Shown here: piece after piece, positions 47,347 to 56,893 of the stretch
Numbering within the stretch: the stretch's first letter is position 1
Layout: every line of letters begins with the position of its first letter
Assembly: GCA_903855995.1 (NCBI GenBank)
Contig: CAIOAN010000008.1
Coordinates: 62,001-126,000, forward strand
Reading direction: 5' to 3'
From: an uncultured Opitutia bacterium
GTDB lineage: Bacteria > Verrucomicrobiota > Verrucomicrobiia > Opitutales > UBA953
DNA length: 64,000 nucleotides
The notes under the pieces: model-generated
Database searches by the model: none
Told to the model about the DNA's origin: nothing
Seen by the model: the letters and a program-made list of their open reading frames with translations, nothing else
Translations under genes and position numbers: made by a program

Positions 47347-48957
47347 TTAGTCTTTTCCGCAGAGAGAAACATTAAGGCCGAGTTCGGCGAACGCGGCTGC
47401 CTTGGCGGCTAAACCTCGACGCGCTGCGGCTTGCGTAGGGGCATACACGACCTGAATGTGGTTGGAGGGATGGCGGGCCATCATCTCGTCACGCGAGATC
47501 CCAGGCAGGACGACATGCATGATAGGCCACTGCGAAGTTGTGAGCTTCCAGCGCTCTTCGGTTTCGGCCTTTGGAAGTTCGACGACTTCGCCGAGCCCGA
47601 GGTCCGCATGCAACTTACCACCCTGGACGAAGACCCGCGACCACACGATCCAACCTGGCTTAGAGATTCCCTTCAGGGTCCCGCCGCCGAGACGGAAATA
47701 CATCGAAGGCTGACGCTCGGAACGGGCGCCTTTGTAGCCGCCAATAAAATGCTTGGCCGGAGCTGCGCCTGAAATCAGGAAGACCCAGACATACTCATCG
47801 ATCAAGCGGCTCCCCGATTTACCCTTATATTGACGGCCCCAGCGTAAGTCATGGAGCGTGTTTTCAGGATCGAACCCGAGTTCCTTCCAAAGGTGATAGG
47901 TAATGAGACCATCCAGGCCGGCGCACTCATCGACTTCATTAAAATGGGGCAGGGCTTCCCCTTTGAAAAGCTCCTGGCGAGTCTTCGCCCGGAAGACCGG
48001 CGGGCGCTCGCGATTGTTGAGCAGTCCCTCGACCAAGTCCGAAGCAGGGGCGAGATCCTTCAAGCCTTGCTGATATTGGATGCCAATCGTGGCGCAGCCG
48101 AATTCATCGGCGAGTCGGACGGCGGCGATATACATCTTTAGCTGCGTGAGGGTCTGGCGGCGGGTGAGTTCCGTCTTTTCATTCTTACCCCAGTCAAAAA
48201 CAAGCCCCTTGCGCTGCAACCAACGCAAGGCGGCGGAAGCTTCAGCATCCTTCACCGTCAACATTGCAGCATAGAGACTGGACTGACTCATCCGTTCCTT
48301 AAAGACGCCGGTCTGATGGAGAATCTCGTCGGGAATAATGGCGTTATACATCCCCATACATCCTTCGTCGAAGACACCCATGATCGCCTGACGACGGCGG
48401 AATGCCTGGGCGAAACGCCGGCCCAACACAGCATCCTGGCCCGAGGCCCTGCCGAGCTTGCGCACATGCGGGGTAGGGTGGCGGACGATGCCCGCCTTCA
48501 GCCAGGATCGCAGCCCTTGAAGGAATTTAGCATCCGTGAAATCCTCGCTCCACAGGGTCGAGAATTTCACCCCGGCCTTGAGCAAGGAGCCATTGAGGTT
48601 CAGCATACCCACCAAGCCAGGCCAAGTGCCGGACCAGTTAGCCACGGTAAGAATTGGCCCACGATGCGAGAGCAGGCCGGGCAGGACGTGATGAGAATAT
48701 TGCCAGACCGCTTCGGCGACAATCAACGGGGCGTCGGAGGGAATACCTCGAAACACCTCCATGCCATACTTCTGGGAATCAATGAAACTGTGGCCAATCT
48801 CAGGTCGGTAGCCGTGGGCGCGCTTCACCTGCCAACCTTCAAGACACAAAGCCTTGGCGAGCAGTGCCTCCATCGCCAATTGCTCGGTTTCACACTTTTG
48901 GTTGGCGGAGGCGCGCAGGTCGCCGTTCGCCACCAGATAGACGGTTCGGTTTTTCAC
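47347..48957 (-). CDS. L-fucose/L-arabinose isomerase family protein
   Basis: Probable ketol-isomerase that converts the aldose (L-fucose, L-rhamnose or related) to its ketose. At 536 aa it is slightly longer than FucI families of about 480. The metal-binding features of the FucI fold are visible: HHVLPGLLSHRG and LVGMLNLNGSLL early, MGVFDEGCMGMYNAII, the NEVDECAGLDGLITYHLWK block and a C-terminal HPSNHIQVVYA. It resembles neither RhaA nor RhaI, so if the substrate is L-rhamnose this would be a third isomerase family for that step. It is the first enzyme gene after the regulator. Confidence 0.8.
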   Translation of the reverse strand: MKNRTVYLVANGDLRASANQKCETEQLAMEALLAKALCLEGWQVKRAHGYRPEIGHSFIDSQKYGMEVFRGIPSDAPLIVAEAVWQYSHHVLPGLLSHRGPILTVANWSGTWPGLVGMLNLNGSLLKAGVKFSTLWSEDFTDAKFLQGLRSWLKAGIVRHPTPHVRKLGRASGQDAVLGRRFAQAFRRRQAIMGVFDEGCMGMYNAIIPDEILHQTGVFKERMSQSSLYAAMLTVKDAEASAALRWLQRKGLVFDWGKNEKTELTRRQTLTQLKMYIAAVRLADEFGCATIGIQYQQGLKDLAPASDLVEGLLNNRERPPVFRAKTRQELFKGEALPHFNEVDECAGLDGLITYHLWKELGFDPENTLHDLRWGRQYKGKSGSRLIDEYVWVFLISGAAPAKHFIGGYKGARSERQPSMYFRLGGGTLKGISKPGWIVWSRVFVQGGKLHADLGLGEVVELPKAETEERWKLTTSQWPIMHVVLPGISRDEMMARHPSNHIQVVYAPTQAAARRGLAAKAAAFAELGLNVSLCGKD

Positions 48958-49973: not shown

Positions 49974-50861
49974 ATGAATCAATTGAATCGGTCATATTAT
50001 GGGCATTTAAACGTTTGGGTGTTTTTAGCACTTTTTCTGACCGGTTGCGCCACCGCTCCGAAGCCCGCTGCCATTAACCCAGCCGCCTCGAAGACTCCCG
50101 TCTATACTGGACTAAATATTATCCAAGGACCGACCTCCCAAGGTGCTGAACCACGCAAAGATAAGATCACCCACCTGGTCCTCCACTATACCGCGGGAAC
50201 CCTGCCCTCTTCCTTAGACATCCTCCAAGGCAAGGACCGAGCCCATAAGGTCGGAGTCCACTATGTCCTGACGGATGAACCAAACCCACGGATTATCCGC
50301 ATGGTCCCCGAATCCCTAGCTGCCTTCCATGCCGGCAAAAGCGGCTGGGCAGATACGACCAGCCTGAACCAACGGTCAATCGGGATCGAGATCATCAACT
50401 TGGATGGAAACGTGCATTCATATTCCGCGGCGCAGGCTGACATGCTTTTCACGCTGTGCTCCGACATCATCCGTCGATATGGCATCAGACCGGAAAATGT
50501 CGTCGGACATTCCGATATCGCCGTGGGCCGCAAGGTCGACCCTGGCTCGCTCTTCCCCTGGCCGAAACTCGCTTCGCTAGGCGTCGGCGCCTGGCCGTTA
50601 CCAGAGGAAGTAAAAGCAAATCTGGCTAAACCCAGAACGTTACCCCCTGCCGAAATCCGCCAACTTCTCACCGTCTACGGTTACCACCTCGAAGCAGGCG
50701 ACGCAGGACTAAAACTTGGCCTCGAAGCTTTTCAACGCCACTTCCGTCCTTCCAGAATCGATGGCCTCGCGGACCCTGAGAGCCTCGCTATCCTGCAGGC
50801 TCTTGTGCGTCGCTATCGCTCCGAAGACCTCCGCAAAGCCAGATTGCAACGCAAGGTCTGA
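49974..50861 (+). CDS. Lipoprotein N-acetylmuramoyl-L-alanine amidase (AmiD-like)
   Basis: A 295-residue zinc amidase predicted to cleave the bond between MurNAc and the stem peptide, or act on recycled anhydro-muropeptides, from the envelope. A lipoprotein signal ends at the lipobox LTGC (Cys near 25). The Amidase_2 domain shows zinc ligands in LVLHYTAGTL, FHAGKSGW, SIGIEIINLD and VGHSDIAVGRKVDPG. Residues about 230-285 resemble a peptidoglycan-binding domain (QLLTVYGYHLEAG to SLAILQALVRRY). It diverges from the sugar operon and its stop is one base from the phosphopantetheinyl transferase stop. Confidence 0.88.
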   Translation: MNQLNRSYYGHLNVWVFLALFLTGCATAPKPAAINPAASKTPVYTGLNIIQGPTSQGAEPRKDKITHLVLHYTAGTLPSSLDILQGKDRAHKVGVHYVLTDEPNPRIIRMVPESLAAFHAGKSGWADTTSLNQRSIGIEIINLDGNVHSYSAAQADMLFTLCSDIIRRYGIRPENVVGHSDIAVGRKVDPGSLFPWPKLASLGVGAWPLPEEVKANLAKPRTLPPAEIRQLLTVYGYHLEAGDAGLKLGLEAFQRHFRPSRIDGLADPESLAILQALVRRYRSEDLRKARLQRKV

Positions 50862-50862
50862 C

Positions 50863-51369
50863 TTAGTGCGCGACCGTCAGCATGCAGTTGCCCACTCGTA
50901 GATGATCGACGCGTGCACGACGAGATGCGCCTGAACATTCCAACTTATAGCGTGCTTCCAACGTCGTCCATTTTCGTGTGAAGGCGACTTCCGGAGATTC
51001 AAGCGGAGATGTGAATGTATCTTCAGCGGACAGGAATTGGCAGGAGACTTCCGCCATATCTGGGAAAGTCCGGATAGGTTCGACGTCCAGACCAATCGCC
51101 CCAGACGCGGACCAAGCCACCCAGCCATCTAAACCGTCATAACTGATGGACAGTGACCAAGGCGCACCGACAAGCACAGGCAGGTTTGAGTTCTCATTCA
51201 AAACAACCCCCGGGCCATGCCAGGCCTTGGCCAGCGTTAAGACCGCCAAGCGAAGCAGTTTGCGAGCGGTGGCGTCGCGACCAATCCCGGGAATCCGGAG
51301 AATCCACACCTTGTCAGCAGGTGCTCGCACGCGCGTCATCGCCTCATCATGATTAATAACAGAAATCAT
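50863..51369 (-). CDS. 4'-phosphopantetheinyl transferase-like protein, short Sfp type
   Basis: Probably attaches phosphopantetheine to the carrier domain of the synthetase encoded just upstream, whose stop overlaps its ATG by 4 bases. It is only 168 aa, less than the 210 or more of Sfp. The magnesium-binding IGLDVEPIR (D95, E97) and the family end block FTRKWTTLEARYK (W134, E138, K142) are visible; the Lys before the Glu of the WxxKEA motif is Leu. The N-terminal half is short and the first conserved His-like segment is poorly matched. Function is inferred from motifs and context. Confidence 0.75.
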   Translation of the reverse strand: MISVINHDEAMTRVRAPADKVWILRIPGIGRDATARKLLRLAVLTLAKAWHGPGVVLNENSNLPVLVGAPWSLSISYDGLDGWVAWSASGAIGLDVEPIRTFPDMAEVSCQFLSAEDTFTSPLESPEVAFTRKWTTLEARYKLECSGASRRARVDHLRVGNCMLTVAH

Positions 51370-54300
51370 CTTAGGCGCACCGCCGGAGCCGACGGGGTTC
51401 CCTCCCAGCTGGTGGCGGCGGGAATCTGCTCGCCCTTAGCGACCAAGGTCAACGGACCGAGATGAACGCCTTCGCCGACTGAAGAAGAATAAAGGACGGT
51501 GCTGCGGACACCGATGGTCGTGCGTGCGCCGATCTCGACCATACCGATCCGCATGACACGATCCTCAAACAAATGCGTCTGCGGGCCGCTATGATCATTG
51601 AGTTCGGCTTCGTCGCCGATTGTGACGCAATCAAACTCCGTCAAGTCCGTGGTGTTCATCCAGACGCCCCGGCCGATTTTAGCGCCAAGCAGGCGCAAGG
51701 CCCAAGGGAGCATCGGAGTTCCTCGCAGAAGATTGAGGATCGCCGGCACCGCCAACGATTCATGTAGCGTCGTGACAGCCTCGCTTACCCAGACGAACAT
51801 CGTCCACATCGGCGCCAGCCGAGGACGGTAGCGTCCGATGAGCAACCACTTGGCCGTCCAGACAAAGGCAAAAGAAACCGCGGCATAAAGAATGCCGGCG
51901 GCGGTCAGCGTCATTAAAAAACCGGTGACATCATCGTCCTCAAGATACGGCATGGTCTCAAATACGGTCACATAACCAGCGGCGATAACGAAAGCCAGAG
52001 GCACAATGATGCGGAGTCCTTCAACAAATCCGCGGGCACAACGACGGGCCCATGACGGGCGGAAAGTTAACGTAGGATCCTGAGCCTGGATGGTCTCGCG
52101 CGCCGGCAGCAGCATCGGTGGCGACCCCATCCAGGTCTGACCAGGCTTTAGCAGATCATTCGCCGGGGCGCTTGATTGGACGCCAAGCAACACATCGTCG
52201 GGGAAAACCGCCCCGTCGGGAACATAGGCGCCATTGCCGACAAATGAACGGCTCCCAATTCGCGTATGATTCAGTGTCATCCAACCATCCTGCTGGCCCT
52301 CATCGCCCAACATCGCCCCGTCGGCGATAAAGGACTCATCACCCAGCTCCAATAATTCCGGGACAATACCCTCCGCGGTCGAAACTTCCGCATCCCGGCC
52401 TACCTTCGTGCCCATCAGCCGCAACCACGTGCCGACGTAAATCGAAGCATAAAGACCGTGCAAGATCTGCAGAGAAGCGTCCAACACGGCCGACAGCTGC
52501 CATTTCCAAAAGTATGCGCGACCTTCCAGGGAGTAGCGGCCAGGGAGCTGGCGGGGCAGGCACTGACGCAGCACGCCCGCCAGCCCCACCGTGATAAGCA
52601 GGAGGATGGCCGAGGCAGGCAGAGCCAAAAGGAAGAAAACTGGGAAGGCTTTCCACCATTCATCGAAATTTTCGAAGATATCCAACCAGCGCAAATCCAC
52701 CGAGTCGATCACCACGAAGCTCGGAAAAATCGGTACATAGAAAAGAAGGGCCACGACGGCGGCACCTAAAATGAAACCTCCATTACGTAAGCCGGCCATC
52801 AACTTGCTAAGTCGAGGCGGCGGTGGCGTGAAGACGCTCTCCGCGACCTTGCGTGCTGGCGCGCCTGCCCAGACTTCACCATCAGGAATGCATCTCCCTT
52901 CGGCGAGGGCCGATTGGCCGCCGAGCCTCGCCCGATCACCGATACGGGTGTCTCCCTCGATAACTGCGTAGGAATCGACGGCGGCATTATCACCGATGCA
53001 CACCCGGCCGATGACGAGCCGCCCACCCTCTACTTTCGCATTCTCAATATTGACGAAAGTACCCAGGCATACGCCTTCACCGATTTCGAGCAGCTCAGGC
53101 ACCGAGGCCGTCACAGCATTGATGGTACAATGACGACCCACCTTAGCTCCGAGCATCCGGAAATGCCAGGCCTTCCAAGGCGTACCAGCAATAAGATGAA
53201 CAGCCGGGATTTCATTTAAGCGCACGCCGAGCCACCAACGGAAATACGTGCCCCCCCACAAAGGGTAATTCCCCGGAGACAAGCGGCCGACCAGCAAACG
53301 TCGCAGCAGGACACCCAGCGGGAAAGTCAGCGCCAAGGCAGCCAGATAAGTCCCGAGGGCGACCACAATGGCCCAGGCGATACTATCCTCGGCATCACCG
53401 GTGAGCCAATGATAGGCAAAAAATGGCGAGAGCCACTGCAGCATCTGCAAAAGAATGAGGAACGGAAGGCAGAGCGCCTGGGCCAATCCGCAAAGGAAGC
53501 GACGCACCAACGGAGCCGACTCGTGCCGAGGAGCGGTCGCCTTGCTCGCACCAACCGCTGCCAAATCGCGGAGGGCCTGGGCGATGGCCGCCAGACGCCG
53601 GTTACGGTAAACATGCTGGACGCCCATCCCCGCATAGCACGGATTCCGCCGGAGAATGGAAACGAGTCGGGCCGCGAGCAAAGAGTGCCCACCGAGATCA
53701 GAGAAGAAATCGGCGTCCGACGATAGCCGGCGTCCGGGCAGCAGTTCCGACAACACCATACGAAGGGCCGCTTCATGTGCATCCGCAGGCGGAGGCAACT
53801 CAGAACCAGCATCCGCACGGATCGTCAATTCCCGGCGACGCAAGGCACCGAGGTCGATCTTGCCCGAACTCAGACGCGGCATCTCCGCGATGAATTCAAA
53901 GTGCGCGGGCACCATGTAGGTCGGTAATCGCGCAGTCAATGCACGCCGCAATGCCTCCACATCGGGTCCACCGCTGGTGAGTACGACGAAAGCCGCGATT
54001 TCATCGTTGCCTGCGACAGGTCGGACGACCGCGGCTGCCGTCCCTACTCCCGGCTGGTCTGCCAGGGCGGCAGAAATCTCATCGAGCTCGATCCGGAAGC
54101 CCCGCAATTTTATCTGATTATCCACTCGGCCAAGACAACGGATCTCGCCGTCGGCCTCGATGATACCCAGATCCCCGGTGAGATAGGCAGACTGTCCATC
54201 GATGACCACGAAACGTGCGGCCGTCAGTTCGGCACGCCCCACGTAGCCCTTCGAGACACCCGGTCCAAAGACAACCAGCTCACCGGTCTGCCCGGAAGGC

Positions 54301-55307
54301 AGAAGTCGATGCTCGGCATCGCAGACACCCATGCCGTAATTCGGTAGCGGGATTCCAATGTTAACCGACTTCCCTGGTAGCAGACGCGCGATGGTCGCCG
54401 TCACGGTGGTTTCCGTCGGCCCATAAGTATTGTAAACTTCAAACGTCCTGCCGGTCAATTTGGCCGCCAAAGCATCCGGGCAAGCCTCACCGCCCAGATT
54501 CAACAAACGCAACGCAGGCGGAAAGGCGGGGATCAAGGCCGCCAGCGTCGGCACAGCATGCATGACTGTGATCCGCTGGGCGGCAAGCACCTGGGCGATG
54601 GCATCAGGATCGCCGACCGTGTCAGCGGGAGCGACCCAGAGCGTGGCACCAGCAAAGAATGAAATCCAGATTTCTTCCAGCGACATGTCAAAGGCCACCG
54701 AGAAACCTTGGTAGACTCGGTCGATCTCCCTGACCTTAATGACTTCGTTCTCACTCCGGATAAAGTGGCAGACGTTGCGCTGAGAAATGGCGATCCCCTT
54801 CGGCTCCCCGGTCGAACCCGACGTATAAATCACGTAGGCGATGTCATTCGAAGCAGCCTGACGAATCTGTGCCGTCGATTCCTCAAACTCCAACTCAGCT
54901 AAGACCAAGGGCGTCAGGCCTCTCGCTTTCACGCCTTCGGCGCCCGCGGCGTTGGTCAGCACGTATCTACCCTTGGCATCGCGCATGCAGGTCGCCAGAC
55001 GATCAAGCGGAATTGCGGCATCAAACGGCAGCCAGGCTGCGCCGGAAAGAGCGATGGCGACCTGCCCGACGATGAGCTCAGCACCTCGGGGCATCCACAA
55101 CCCCAGACACTCCCCCGGCCCGCAGCCACGCGCCGCCAAGGCCCGGGCGATGAATTCGGCCCGGGACCATAACTGAAAATAAGTTAACGAAACCGAGCCG
55201 TCCTCAATCGCGACATGTTGAGGTTGACGGTCAACCGTGGACTTCAGCAAGTCAGGCAGCGTCTCAGCGCGGATGAATTCTGGTCGCGATGTCCCCGGAA
55301 GAATCAT
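51366..55307 (-). CDS. Pls/PosA-type non-ribosomal peptide synthetase with membrane and beta-helix domains
   Basis: A 1313-residue enzyme. Residues 1-500 are an adenylation domain (YTSGSTGEPKG, YNTYGPTE, SGKID). By hand alignment to GrsA the specificity code is DMEHNGTVTK; Asp235 with Glu239 points to a basic amino acid. A carrier domain follows (DLGGHSLLAARL, Ser near 541). The C-terminal half has six hydrophobic segments in three pairs, each followed by a hexapeptide left-handed beta-helix region (GAKVGRHCTINA; GTKVGRDAEVST; GAKIGRGVWMNT). This is the architecture of epsilon-poly-lysine synthetase, where tandem C-terminal domains extend the chain. A thioesterase is absent. It overlaps murJ and the PPTase by 4 bases each. 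Confidence 0.88.
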   Translation of the reverse strand: MILPGTSRPEFIRAETLPDLLKSTVDRQPQHVAIEDGSVSLTYFQLWSRAEFIARALAARGCGPGECLGLWMPRGAELIVGQVAIALSGAAWLPFDAAIPLDRLATCMRDAKGRYVLTNAAGAEGVKARGLTPLVLAELEFEESTAQIRQAASNDIAYVIYTSGSTGEPKGIAISQRNVCHFIRSENEVIKVREIDRVYQGFSVAFDMSLEEIWISFFAGATLWVAPADTVGDPDAIAQVLAAQRITVMHAVPTLAALIPAFPPALRLLNLGGEACPDALAAKLTGRTFEVYNTYGPTETTVTATIARLLPGKSVNIGIPLPNYGMGVCDAEHRLLPSGQTGELVVFGPGVSKGYVGRAELTAARFVVIDGQSAYLTGDLGIIEADGEIRCLGRVDNQIKLRGFRIELDEISAALADQPGVGTAAAVVRPVAGNDEIAAFVVLTSGGPDVEALRRALTARLPTYMVPAHFEFIAEMPRLSSGKIDLGALRRRELTIRADAGSELPPPADAHEAALRMVLSELLPGRRLSSDADFFSDLGGHSLLAARLVSILRRNPCYAGMGVQHVYRNRRLAAIAQALRDLAAVGASKATAPRHESAPLVRRFLCGLAQALCLPFLILLQMLQWLSPFFAYHWLTGDAEDSIAWAIVVALGTYLAALALTFPLGVLLRRLLVGRLSPGNYPLWGGTYFRWWLGVRLNEIPAVHLIAGTPWKAWHFRMLGAKVGRHCTINAVTASVPELLEIGEGVCLGTFVNIENAKVEGGRLVIGRVCIGDNAAVDSYAVIEGDTRIGDRARLGGQSALAEGRCIPDGEVWAGAPARKVAESVFTPPPPRLSKLMAGLRNGGFILGAAVVALLFYVPIFPSFVVIDSVDLRWLDIFENFDEWWKAFPVFFLLALPASAILLLITVGLAGVLRQCLPRQLPGRYSLEGRAYFWKWQLSAVLDASLQILHGLYASIYVGTWLRLMGTKVGRDAEVSTAEGIVPELLELGDESFIADGAMLGDEGQQDGWMTLNHTRIGSRSFVGNGAYVPDGAVFPDDVLLGVQSSAPANDLLKPGQTWMGSPPMLLPARETIQAQDPTLTFRPSWARRCARGFVEGLRIIVPLAFVIAAGYVTVFETMPYLEDDDVTGFLMTLTAAGILYAAVSFAFVWTAKWLLIGRYRPRLAPMWTMFVWVSEAVTTLHESLAVPAILNLLRGTPMLPWALRLLGAKIGRGVWMNTTDLTEFDCVTIGDEAELNDHSGPQTHLFEDRVMRIGMVEIGARTTIGVRSTVLYSSSVGEGVHLGPLTLVAKGEQIPAATSWEGTPSAPAVRLR

Positions 55308-56893
55308 CGTCGTAGTCGGAGAAGGCGCAGCATCTTGTCACGATAAGTAATCACCAAATCCTTCTCCGGATAATTCCACGCGCACAGAATCCACGCATAA
55401 ATCGATGCCGCCAGTCCAGCTGCGATCAACATGGCGGCAAAAAGAGCCAGTTTCTTTGGCATGAACGGCAAGGCACCTTGGCTCAGGTAATGATACCCCT
55501 GAAAGGCAACCGCACCCAGCACGAGCGAACCGACAAGCACCTTCATGACTGACCCAAGCAGGCTCTCGCCCAGAAACGCTGGCGCACTGCGTTGGAGCAT
55601 CCGTCGGAGGACTATGTATTGCCAGACGGTGGAAAGTCCGTTGGCAATGGCCAAACCCACGATACCCGCCCCCATCATCACTGCGATCAAGGAAGCGACC
55701 ACATTGACACCAAACGCATGACCAGCCGCCCAGAAAGTCGCCTTGGTATTACCCGAAACGTTCAACGCCCGGGTTGCGAGCGAGATCAACGCATAGAAAG
55801 GCATCGCAAACGCAAACAGCACCAGAATGAGCTGAGTTCTTTCGCAATCATCCGCCGTGAAACGACCGAATTCAAAAAGAAGCTGCACGATCGGCCCGGA
55901 GAGAACGATTAATCCGACGGCCGCGGCGATATTTATGGCGAGCACCAGCCGGACTCCCCGGGCGTAGTTACGCGCCAGGGCCGCATCATCCTTGGCGGCA
56001 TAAGCAGTGGCCAGAGCCGGGAACATCACCGTGGCGATCGAAGCGGAAAACAAACCGATGGGGAGCTCAACGATGCGGTTCGCGATGTAGTAATAGGTCA
56101 GCGCCGCATCCGAAACGCCGAAGGCCAGGCAACGCGAAACAAGGAAATTAACCTGTTGGATACCGGCGCCGAGGGCGGCGGGAATGAAGGCCATCCATAG
56201 AACCGACCATGCGGCGGCATCGGCTACCACCGGACGCGGGCGCCAACCTTCCTGACGCAATCCCCAGACCGGAATCATCAGCTGCAAAGCACCCCCGACG
56301 ATGGCACCTGCACAGAGCCAGCGGGCCTGGGCCATCATGTCAACGCCGGCGAAGGCCCAACCGAAGAACCCAAGCGCGATGATCATGCACAAGTTGAGCA
56401 TCGCGGAGGCGAACTCCGCCAAACCAAAACGGCCGCTGAGATTGACGGCGGAAGTGAACAGCGCCGCCAGACAGATCAACGGCATGTACGGCATGCAATA
56501 GGCGGTCAGCTCAGCGGCCCGGGCGGTCGAAGAATTTGCCGGTGCCAGGTAAGCCCACGACAAGGCGACGCCCATGCAAATCAAGGTGATACCAATCATC
56601 CAAGGCAGGACCCGTCGCACGACATGATTGAGAAAAGCAAAAGCCGAGGCCTTCCCCTCTTTGGCGGTCTTATCCGCCAGCACCGGGACCACCGCGACCG
56701 TCAACGCGCCTTCACCCAGTAAACGTCGGAATAAATTGGGAATCTGGAAGGCGAAAAGGAAAGCCGCGCCCACCGGGCCGGCGCCGAAGAATGCCGTTGT
56801 CACCTGGTCTCGCACCAAACCGAGCACTCGCGAAACCAAGGTCCAGGAGGCGGTCTTCGCCATGTCCCGGTATTGGCGCGTCTGCTCGCTCAT
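55304..56893 (-). CDS. murJ: Lipid II flippase MurJ
   Basis: Flips lipid II across the inner membrane for peptidoglycan synthesis. At 529 aa it has about 14 hydrophobic segments. The start (ASWTLVSRVLGLVRDQVTTAFFGAG), IPNLFRRLLGEGALTVAVVPVL, and the region QVNFLVSRCLAF with conserved basic residues are diagnostic of MurJ/MviN. Its stop overlaps the Pls start by 4 bases, so the synthetase is translated with it. It starts 6 bases after hisS. Confidence 0.95.
   Translation of the reverse strand: MSEQTRQYRDMAKTASWTLVSRVLGLVRDQVTTAFFGAGPVGAAFLFAFQIPNLFRRLLGEGALTVAVVPVLADKTAKEGKASAFAFLNHVVRRVLPWMIGITLICMGVALSWAYLAPANSSTARAAELTAYCMPYMPLICLAALFTSAVNLSGRFGLAEFASAMLNLCMIIALGFFGWAFAGVDMMAQARWLCAGAIVGGALQLMIPVWGLRQEGWRPRPVVADAAAWSVLWMAFIPAALGAGIQQVNFLVSRCLAFGVSDAALTYYYIANRIVELPIGLFSASIATVMFPALATAYAAKDDAALARNYARGVRLVLAINIAAAVGLIVLSGPIVQLLFEFGRFTADDCERTQLILVLFAFAMPFYALISLATRALNVSGNTKATFWAAGHAFGVNVVASLIAVMMGAGIVGLAIANGLSTVWQYIVLRRMLQRSAPAFLGESLLGSVMKVLVGSLVLGAVAFQGYHYLSQGALPFMPKKLALFAAMLIAAGLAASIYAWILCAWNYPEKDLVITYRDKMLRLLRLRR

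Follow-up and report, generated by a model that had tools for sequence, protein, structure and literature searches.

A predicted delta-poly-L-ornithine cassette, a PosA-type synthetase gene with an adjacent phosphopantetheinyl transferase gene, at a murJ/amidase junction in an uncultured Opitutia bacterium

The closest described relatives of the enzyme treated here are PosA of Acinetobacter baumannii (PMC10522769; PDB 8G95-8G98), a delta-poly-L-ornithine synthetase, and Pls (PDB 7WEW), with which Streptomyces albulus makes epsilon-poly-L-lysine. The code of an adenylation (A) domain forecasts the amino acid that is activated, not the polymer. That of PosA reads DMEHNGTVSK, its contacting residues are Asp217, Met218, Glu221, Thr304 and Ser313, and the choice of chain length has been ascribed to Met218; at code position 2 the ornithine group has Met, the Lys enzymes have Ala and the Dap/Dab enzymes have Phe (PMC10522769). 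The substitution M218A raised the use of lysine about tenfold (PMC10522769), and the specificity is therefore changeable by few substitutions. The posA gene of A. baumannii has been reported as a single-gene operon with no phosphopantetheinyl transferase (PPTase) as a neighbour, and a dedicated PPTase is therefore not required by the family.

In the window (the whole stretch of 64,000 nucleotides that was analysed here), a synthetase gene of this family is, in contrast to posA, followed by a gene for a PPTase that is most likely dedicated to it (Table 1). We read the two genes as a PosA-type cassette that would make delta-poly-L-ornithine and would be activated by its own PPTase, seated at the murJ/amidase junction, and give this reading, in which the substrate, the product, the activation by the PPTase, co-transcription and the role are inferred, a probability of about 0.75. 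The cassette stands at the 3' end of the gene string trpB-yicC-HU-hisS-murJ; murJ has the HisRS gene upstream, and the PPTase gene is faced by a convergent Amidase_2 gene. As had been claimed in an earlier note on this DNA, the three minus-strand genes are joined by 4-base overlaps: the reading frames are exact, and both junctions, murJ/synthetase and synthetase/PPTase, are ATGA. From the overlap, co-transcription of the cassette with the murJ string in the source genome is plausible; scans for promoters and terminators stayed at chance level. The flippase itself is matched by the NCBIfam profile TIGR01695 with 290.2 bits (cut-off 235.55). The cassette has no peptidase gene as a partner, unlike what has been reported for Streptomyces and Corynebacterium. 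We also considered the cassette as recent foreign DNA; its GC content is the same as that of the window (59.0% in both), and the composition thus carries no sign of recent transfer.

Table 1. Features of the cassette, its domains and its flanks (positions in the window)
Feature	Position	Strand	Basis
Amidase_2 gene (N-acetylmuramoyl-L-alanine amidase), convergent; other flank of the cassette site	49974..50861	+	domain search
PPTase (Sfp-type 4'-phosphopantetheinyl transferase, short, 168 aa)	50863..51369	-	ORF exact
Pls/PosA family synthetase, 1313 aa, predicted to activate L-ornithine (code DMEHNGTVTK)	51366..55307	-	ORF exact
Adenylation domain, residues 23-483	53859..55241	-	PF00501 240.6 bits, PF13193 33.2 bits
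Carrier (PP-binding) domain, about residues 516-580, attachment Ser542 in GGHSLL	53568..53762	-	domain search, alignment
C-terminal polymerisation/membrane domain, residues 609-1305; six membrane helices, three left-handed beta-helices	51393..53483	-	TIGR02353, model
Left-handed beta-helix 1, about residues 732-823	52839..53114	-	profile and model
Left-handed beta-helix 2, about residues 986-1067	52107..52352	-	profile and model
Left-handed beta-helix 3, about residues 1228-1302	51402..51626	-	profile and model
MurJ lipid II flippase; neighbour at the site with or without the cassette	55304..56893	-	ORF exact

By its domain content the synthetase is assigned to the Pls/PosA family of nonribosomal peptide synthetases. 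Profiles for AMP-binding, PP-binding, Hexapep and TIGR02353 (Pfam and NCBIfam) are all matched, which bears out the Pls-type enzyme proposed earlier, and the C-terminal domain scores 679.2 bits against TIGR02353 (Pls/PosA; cut-off 423.1). The order is A domain, carrier and C-terminal domain, with no condensation domain; PF00668, the condensation domain profile, finds no match anywhere in the source genome. This domain order and the NCBI family are also those of Pls, and both the domain order and the C-terminal architecture are common to PosA. In an AlphaFold model of residues 585-1313 (41 homologues; pLDDT 92.1), the C-terminal part consists of three repeats, each with a pair of long helices ahead of a left-handed beta-helix; these repeats support the six membrane helices and three beta-helices that had been read from the sequence alone, and the model matches the one published for PosA (PMC10522769). 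The beta-helices are also found by profile at three separate places. Their fold matches (Foldseek) are hexapeptide acyltransferases, and we considered whether they are ordinary acyltransferase modules; the fold is alike, but the Pls/PosA terminal domain is matched along the full length of the region.

Alignment of the A domain reproduces the code DMEHNGTVTK, exactly as it had been derived by hand and taken to be cation-accepting. It differs from that of PosA only at code position 9, where Ser is replaced by Thr and the hydroxyl is retained; the same Thr variant is present in several Acinetobacter homologues (L129, L134, L141, L153). The pocket keeps Asp207, Met208, Glu211 and Thr294 of the PosA-type contacts. 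At code position 2 the S. albulus Pls has Ala and the window enzyme Met. Among solved A domains PosA is the closest (409 bits; 48% identity over 394 aa), with epsilon-poly-lysine synthetase at 224 bits; thus, the family to which the earlier note had assigned the enzyme, that of epsilon-poly-lysine synthetase and its relatives, was right, but its nearest characterised member is PosA. Given the code match and the proximity to PosA, ornithine is a likelier monomer than lysine, and L-ornithine is the best substrate forecast that we can infer. It should also be available, since ArgJ and ornithine carbamoyltransferase are encoded in the source genome. With this locus, a verrucomicrobial genus gains a predicted synthetase of a cationic homopolymer, and the likely substrate is narrowed to ornithine.

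In the alternative that survives best the enzyme type is kept, and the monomer is a diamino acid other than L-ornithine (L-Lys, L-Dab, D-Orn) or a mixture. PosA crystals were found also to bind D-Orn and L-Lys (PMC10522769), a single pocket mutation shifts the preference, and the Ser to Thr change lies at an interacting position of the pocket. However, this is the one such position that differs, the four other contacts are kept, and the Met at code position 2 is that of the ornithine group and not of the Lys (Ala) or Dap/Dab (Phe) enzymes, so that we regard another monomer as unlikely, though deserving some weight.

The small protein encoded behind the synthetase gene is, by its family profile, its homologues and its fold, an Sfp-type PPTase, as had been supposed. 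Taken alone, it scores 20.7 bits against Pfam ACPS, below the 25-bit cut-off, but ACPS is matched by 38 of 40 of its homologues, its family profile finds Sfp at 5e-9, and the 34 best fold matches of its predicted structure (pLDDT 92.5) are Sfp-type PPTases. Gly93, Asp95, Trp134, Glu138 and Lys142 are invariant in the 40 homologues. With Sfp (PDB 1QR0, 4MRT) it has in common the fold and the signature Asp, Glu and Lys; it differs in length (168 aa vs about 225 aa for Sfp) and in having Leu where a Lys usually precedes the motif Glu, and its relatives likewise lack this Lys. A separate AcpS is encoded elsewhere in the source genome, which also has no condensation domain, and the PPTase is therefore predicted to be most likely dedicated to the synthetase.

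The steps by which the delta-poly-L-ornithine cassette might work are taken from the characterised family (PMC10522769); what the sequence shows is the anatomy of the two proteins. The PPTase would use CoA to place a phosphopantetheine on Ser542 of the carrier domain. L-Ornithine would next be activated with ATP by the A domain and loaded by it onto the carrier, and the membrane-embedded C-terminal domain, with its six helices under three packed beta-helices, would join ornithine residues via the delta-amino group. The product is predicted to be delta-poly-L-ornithine in short cationic chains, whose release probably takes place at the cytoplasmic membrane or across it. Antimicrobial, biofilm and envelope functions are all candidate roles.

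The conserved unit is the pair of synthetase and PPTase. Both are present in the same 14 of the 55 genomes of the genus, none of which has one alone, and among the loci with room downstream the PPTase gene follows the synthetase gene in 55 of 82, in agreement with the coupling of the two genes that had been noticed in the window. According to NCBI annotation, the pair is also present in Sphingomonas and Rhizobium plasmids (NZ_CP155753, NZ_CP032686), where a 4'-phosphopantetheinyl transferase superfamily gene directly follows the synthetase gene as it does in the window; these synthetases are 37-39% identical to that of the window, the flanking genes differ, and the code of the Rhizobium enzyme is DLEDIGTVVK vs DMEHNGTVTK. 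We found no description of the pair in the open-access literature, and neither product nor activity data for any member from Verrucomicrobia. We give even odds to a broader idea, according to which the short PPTases behind PosA-type synthetases in Verrucomicrobia and Proteobacteria would form a dedicated subfamily that lacks the usual Lys and acts only on the PosA-type carrier, and the pair would be a self-sufficient two-gene cassette, gained and lost at different sites. In many bacteria the conserved unit is this predicted self-activating pair, a synthetase with its own PPTase, which offers a practical pointer for expression in a heterologous host.

Relatives of the synthetase are widespread. 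At least 571 were found in a collection of 84,980 species, and the 80 kept of these are mostly from Verrucomicrobia and Proteobacteria; the family is thus not mainly one of Streptomyces, where the earlier note had placed most of its descriptions. A sample of 388 genomes of the phylum yields 5 with a match, of which four exceed the cut-off, and within the order full-length relatives were found in the window's own genus alone, other families matching in the A-domain region alone. Most of the 80 relatives and the genus members have the code DMEHNGTVSK (59) or DMEHNGTVTK (21), in a sample whose scan patterns favour the PosA branch. In a FastTree phylogeny of relatives drawn with the same patterns, and without characterised Pls or PDAP sequences, the window enzyme and PosA fall in one clade of 57 of the 64 sequences (support 0.997), outside which are enzymes of Rhizobium, Azospirillum, Sphingomonas, Rhodococcus and Skermanella.

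Within the genus, two subtypes of the cassette can be told apart. Subtype A (about 70-76% identity) is seated between MurJ and the amidase; six relatives (L035, L036, L037, L039, L041, L043) have both flanks in place, and in two more (L034, L015) the contigs end short of murJ. Subtype B (about 52-53% identity), in five genomes, is seated elsewhere, and murJ is not nearby; none of the relatives examined outside the genus has murJ near the cassette either. In all 20 genus genomes examined that have no cassette at the site, HisRS, MurJ and the amidase are contiguous. A tree built from eight genes of the site places subtype A in two clades that are apart from each other, and species without the cassette stand both between these clades and inside them; such a pattern would result from ancestral presence followed by losses as well as from recombination at the common site that moved the cassette within the genus. 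In two genomes without the cassette that branch inside a cassette-bearing clade (L182, genome G025; L188, genome G030), the murJ and amidase frames are about 38 bases apart, whereas in most other cassette-less genomes they overlap by a few bases; the gap is possibly a trace of cassette loss.

The link to murJ is thus one of position, not of a common pathway. The earlier note had paired the cassette with MurJ and seen a trio that might be conserved in relatives; murJ is adjacent in one subtype and one genus only, the 20 cassette-less genomes, subtype B and the relatives outside the genus speak against a conserved trio, and the tempting MurJ link is removed as unsupported. The same observations bear on a second alternative, in which the enzyme would release no free polymer and would instead attach cationic residues to a component of the envelope, much as D-alanylation and lipid aminoacylation do; MurJ and the amidase would then tie it to wall synthesis. 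The catalytic domain is predicted by the model to be membrane-embedded, its beta-helix folds resemble acyltransferases, and murJ and amidase genes flank the cassette; characterised Pls/PosA relatives, however, release free homopolymers (PMC10522769), the two flanking genes are fixed at the site and present without the cassette, and neither subtype B nor the relatives outside the genus have murJ nearby, which leaves this alternative very improbable. Even less probable is that selection has kept MurJ, synthetase and PPTase together as a functional unit in which wall and polymer synthesis are coordinated. The 4-base overlaps of the window could be adduced for it, as could the gene order, which recurs in two clades of the genus; against it stand the adjacency of murJ to the amidase in 20 of 20 genomes without the cassette at the site, the five subtype B genomes with the pair elsewhere, the short gaps that replace the murJ overlap in several relatives, and the lack of a nearby murJ in all relatives examined outside the genus.

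Some further observations were made along the way. In the window, an isomerase-like gene (47347-48957) lies between a DeoR-like regulator and an aldolase-like gene (names guessed from the reading frames); it is absent in several genus members (e.g. L035, L185, L186), in which the regulator, aldolase-like and kinase-like genes are kept. The contig CALQLO010000001.1 (L099), apparently the same as contig C1 of genome G068, matches the window's genus across the whole neighbourhood, and its title, Akkermansia muciniphila, therefore looks wrong. A Pls/PosA relative in a genome of the same class (G579; L200/L201, synthetase at L201, 4150-8151) scores 407 bits, just under the cut-off of 423, and no PPTase was found near it; its code, DSECYGGVTK, is that of a Bdellovibrionales enzyme with modest arginine activity (PMC10522769). 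On plasmid pSR-1 of Skermanella rosea (L208, 1358-6888), ectB (diaminobutyrate transaminase) directly precedes a Pls/PosA synthetase gene with the code DFECLSVVTK, which suggests a poly-diaminobutyrate pathway.
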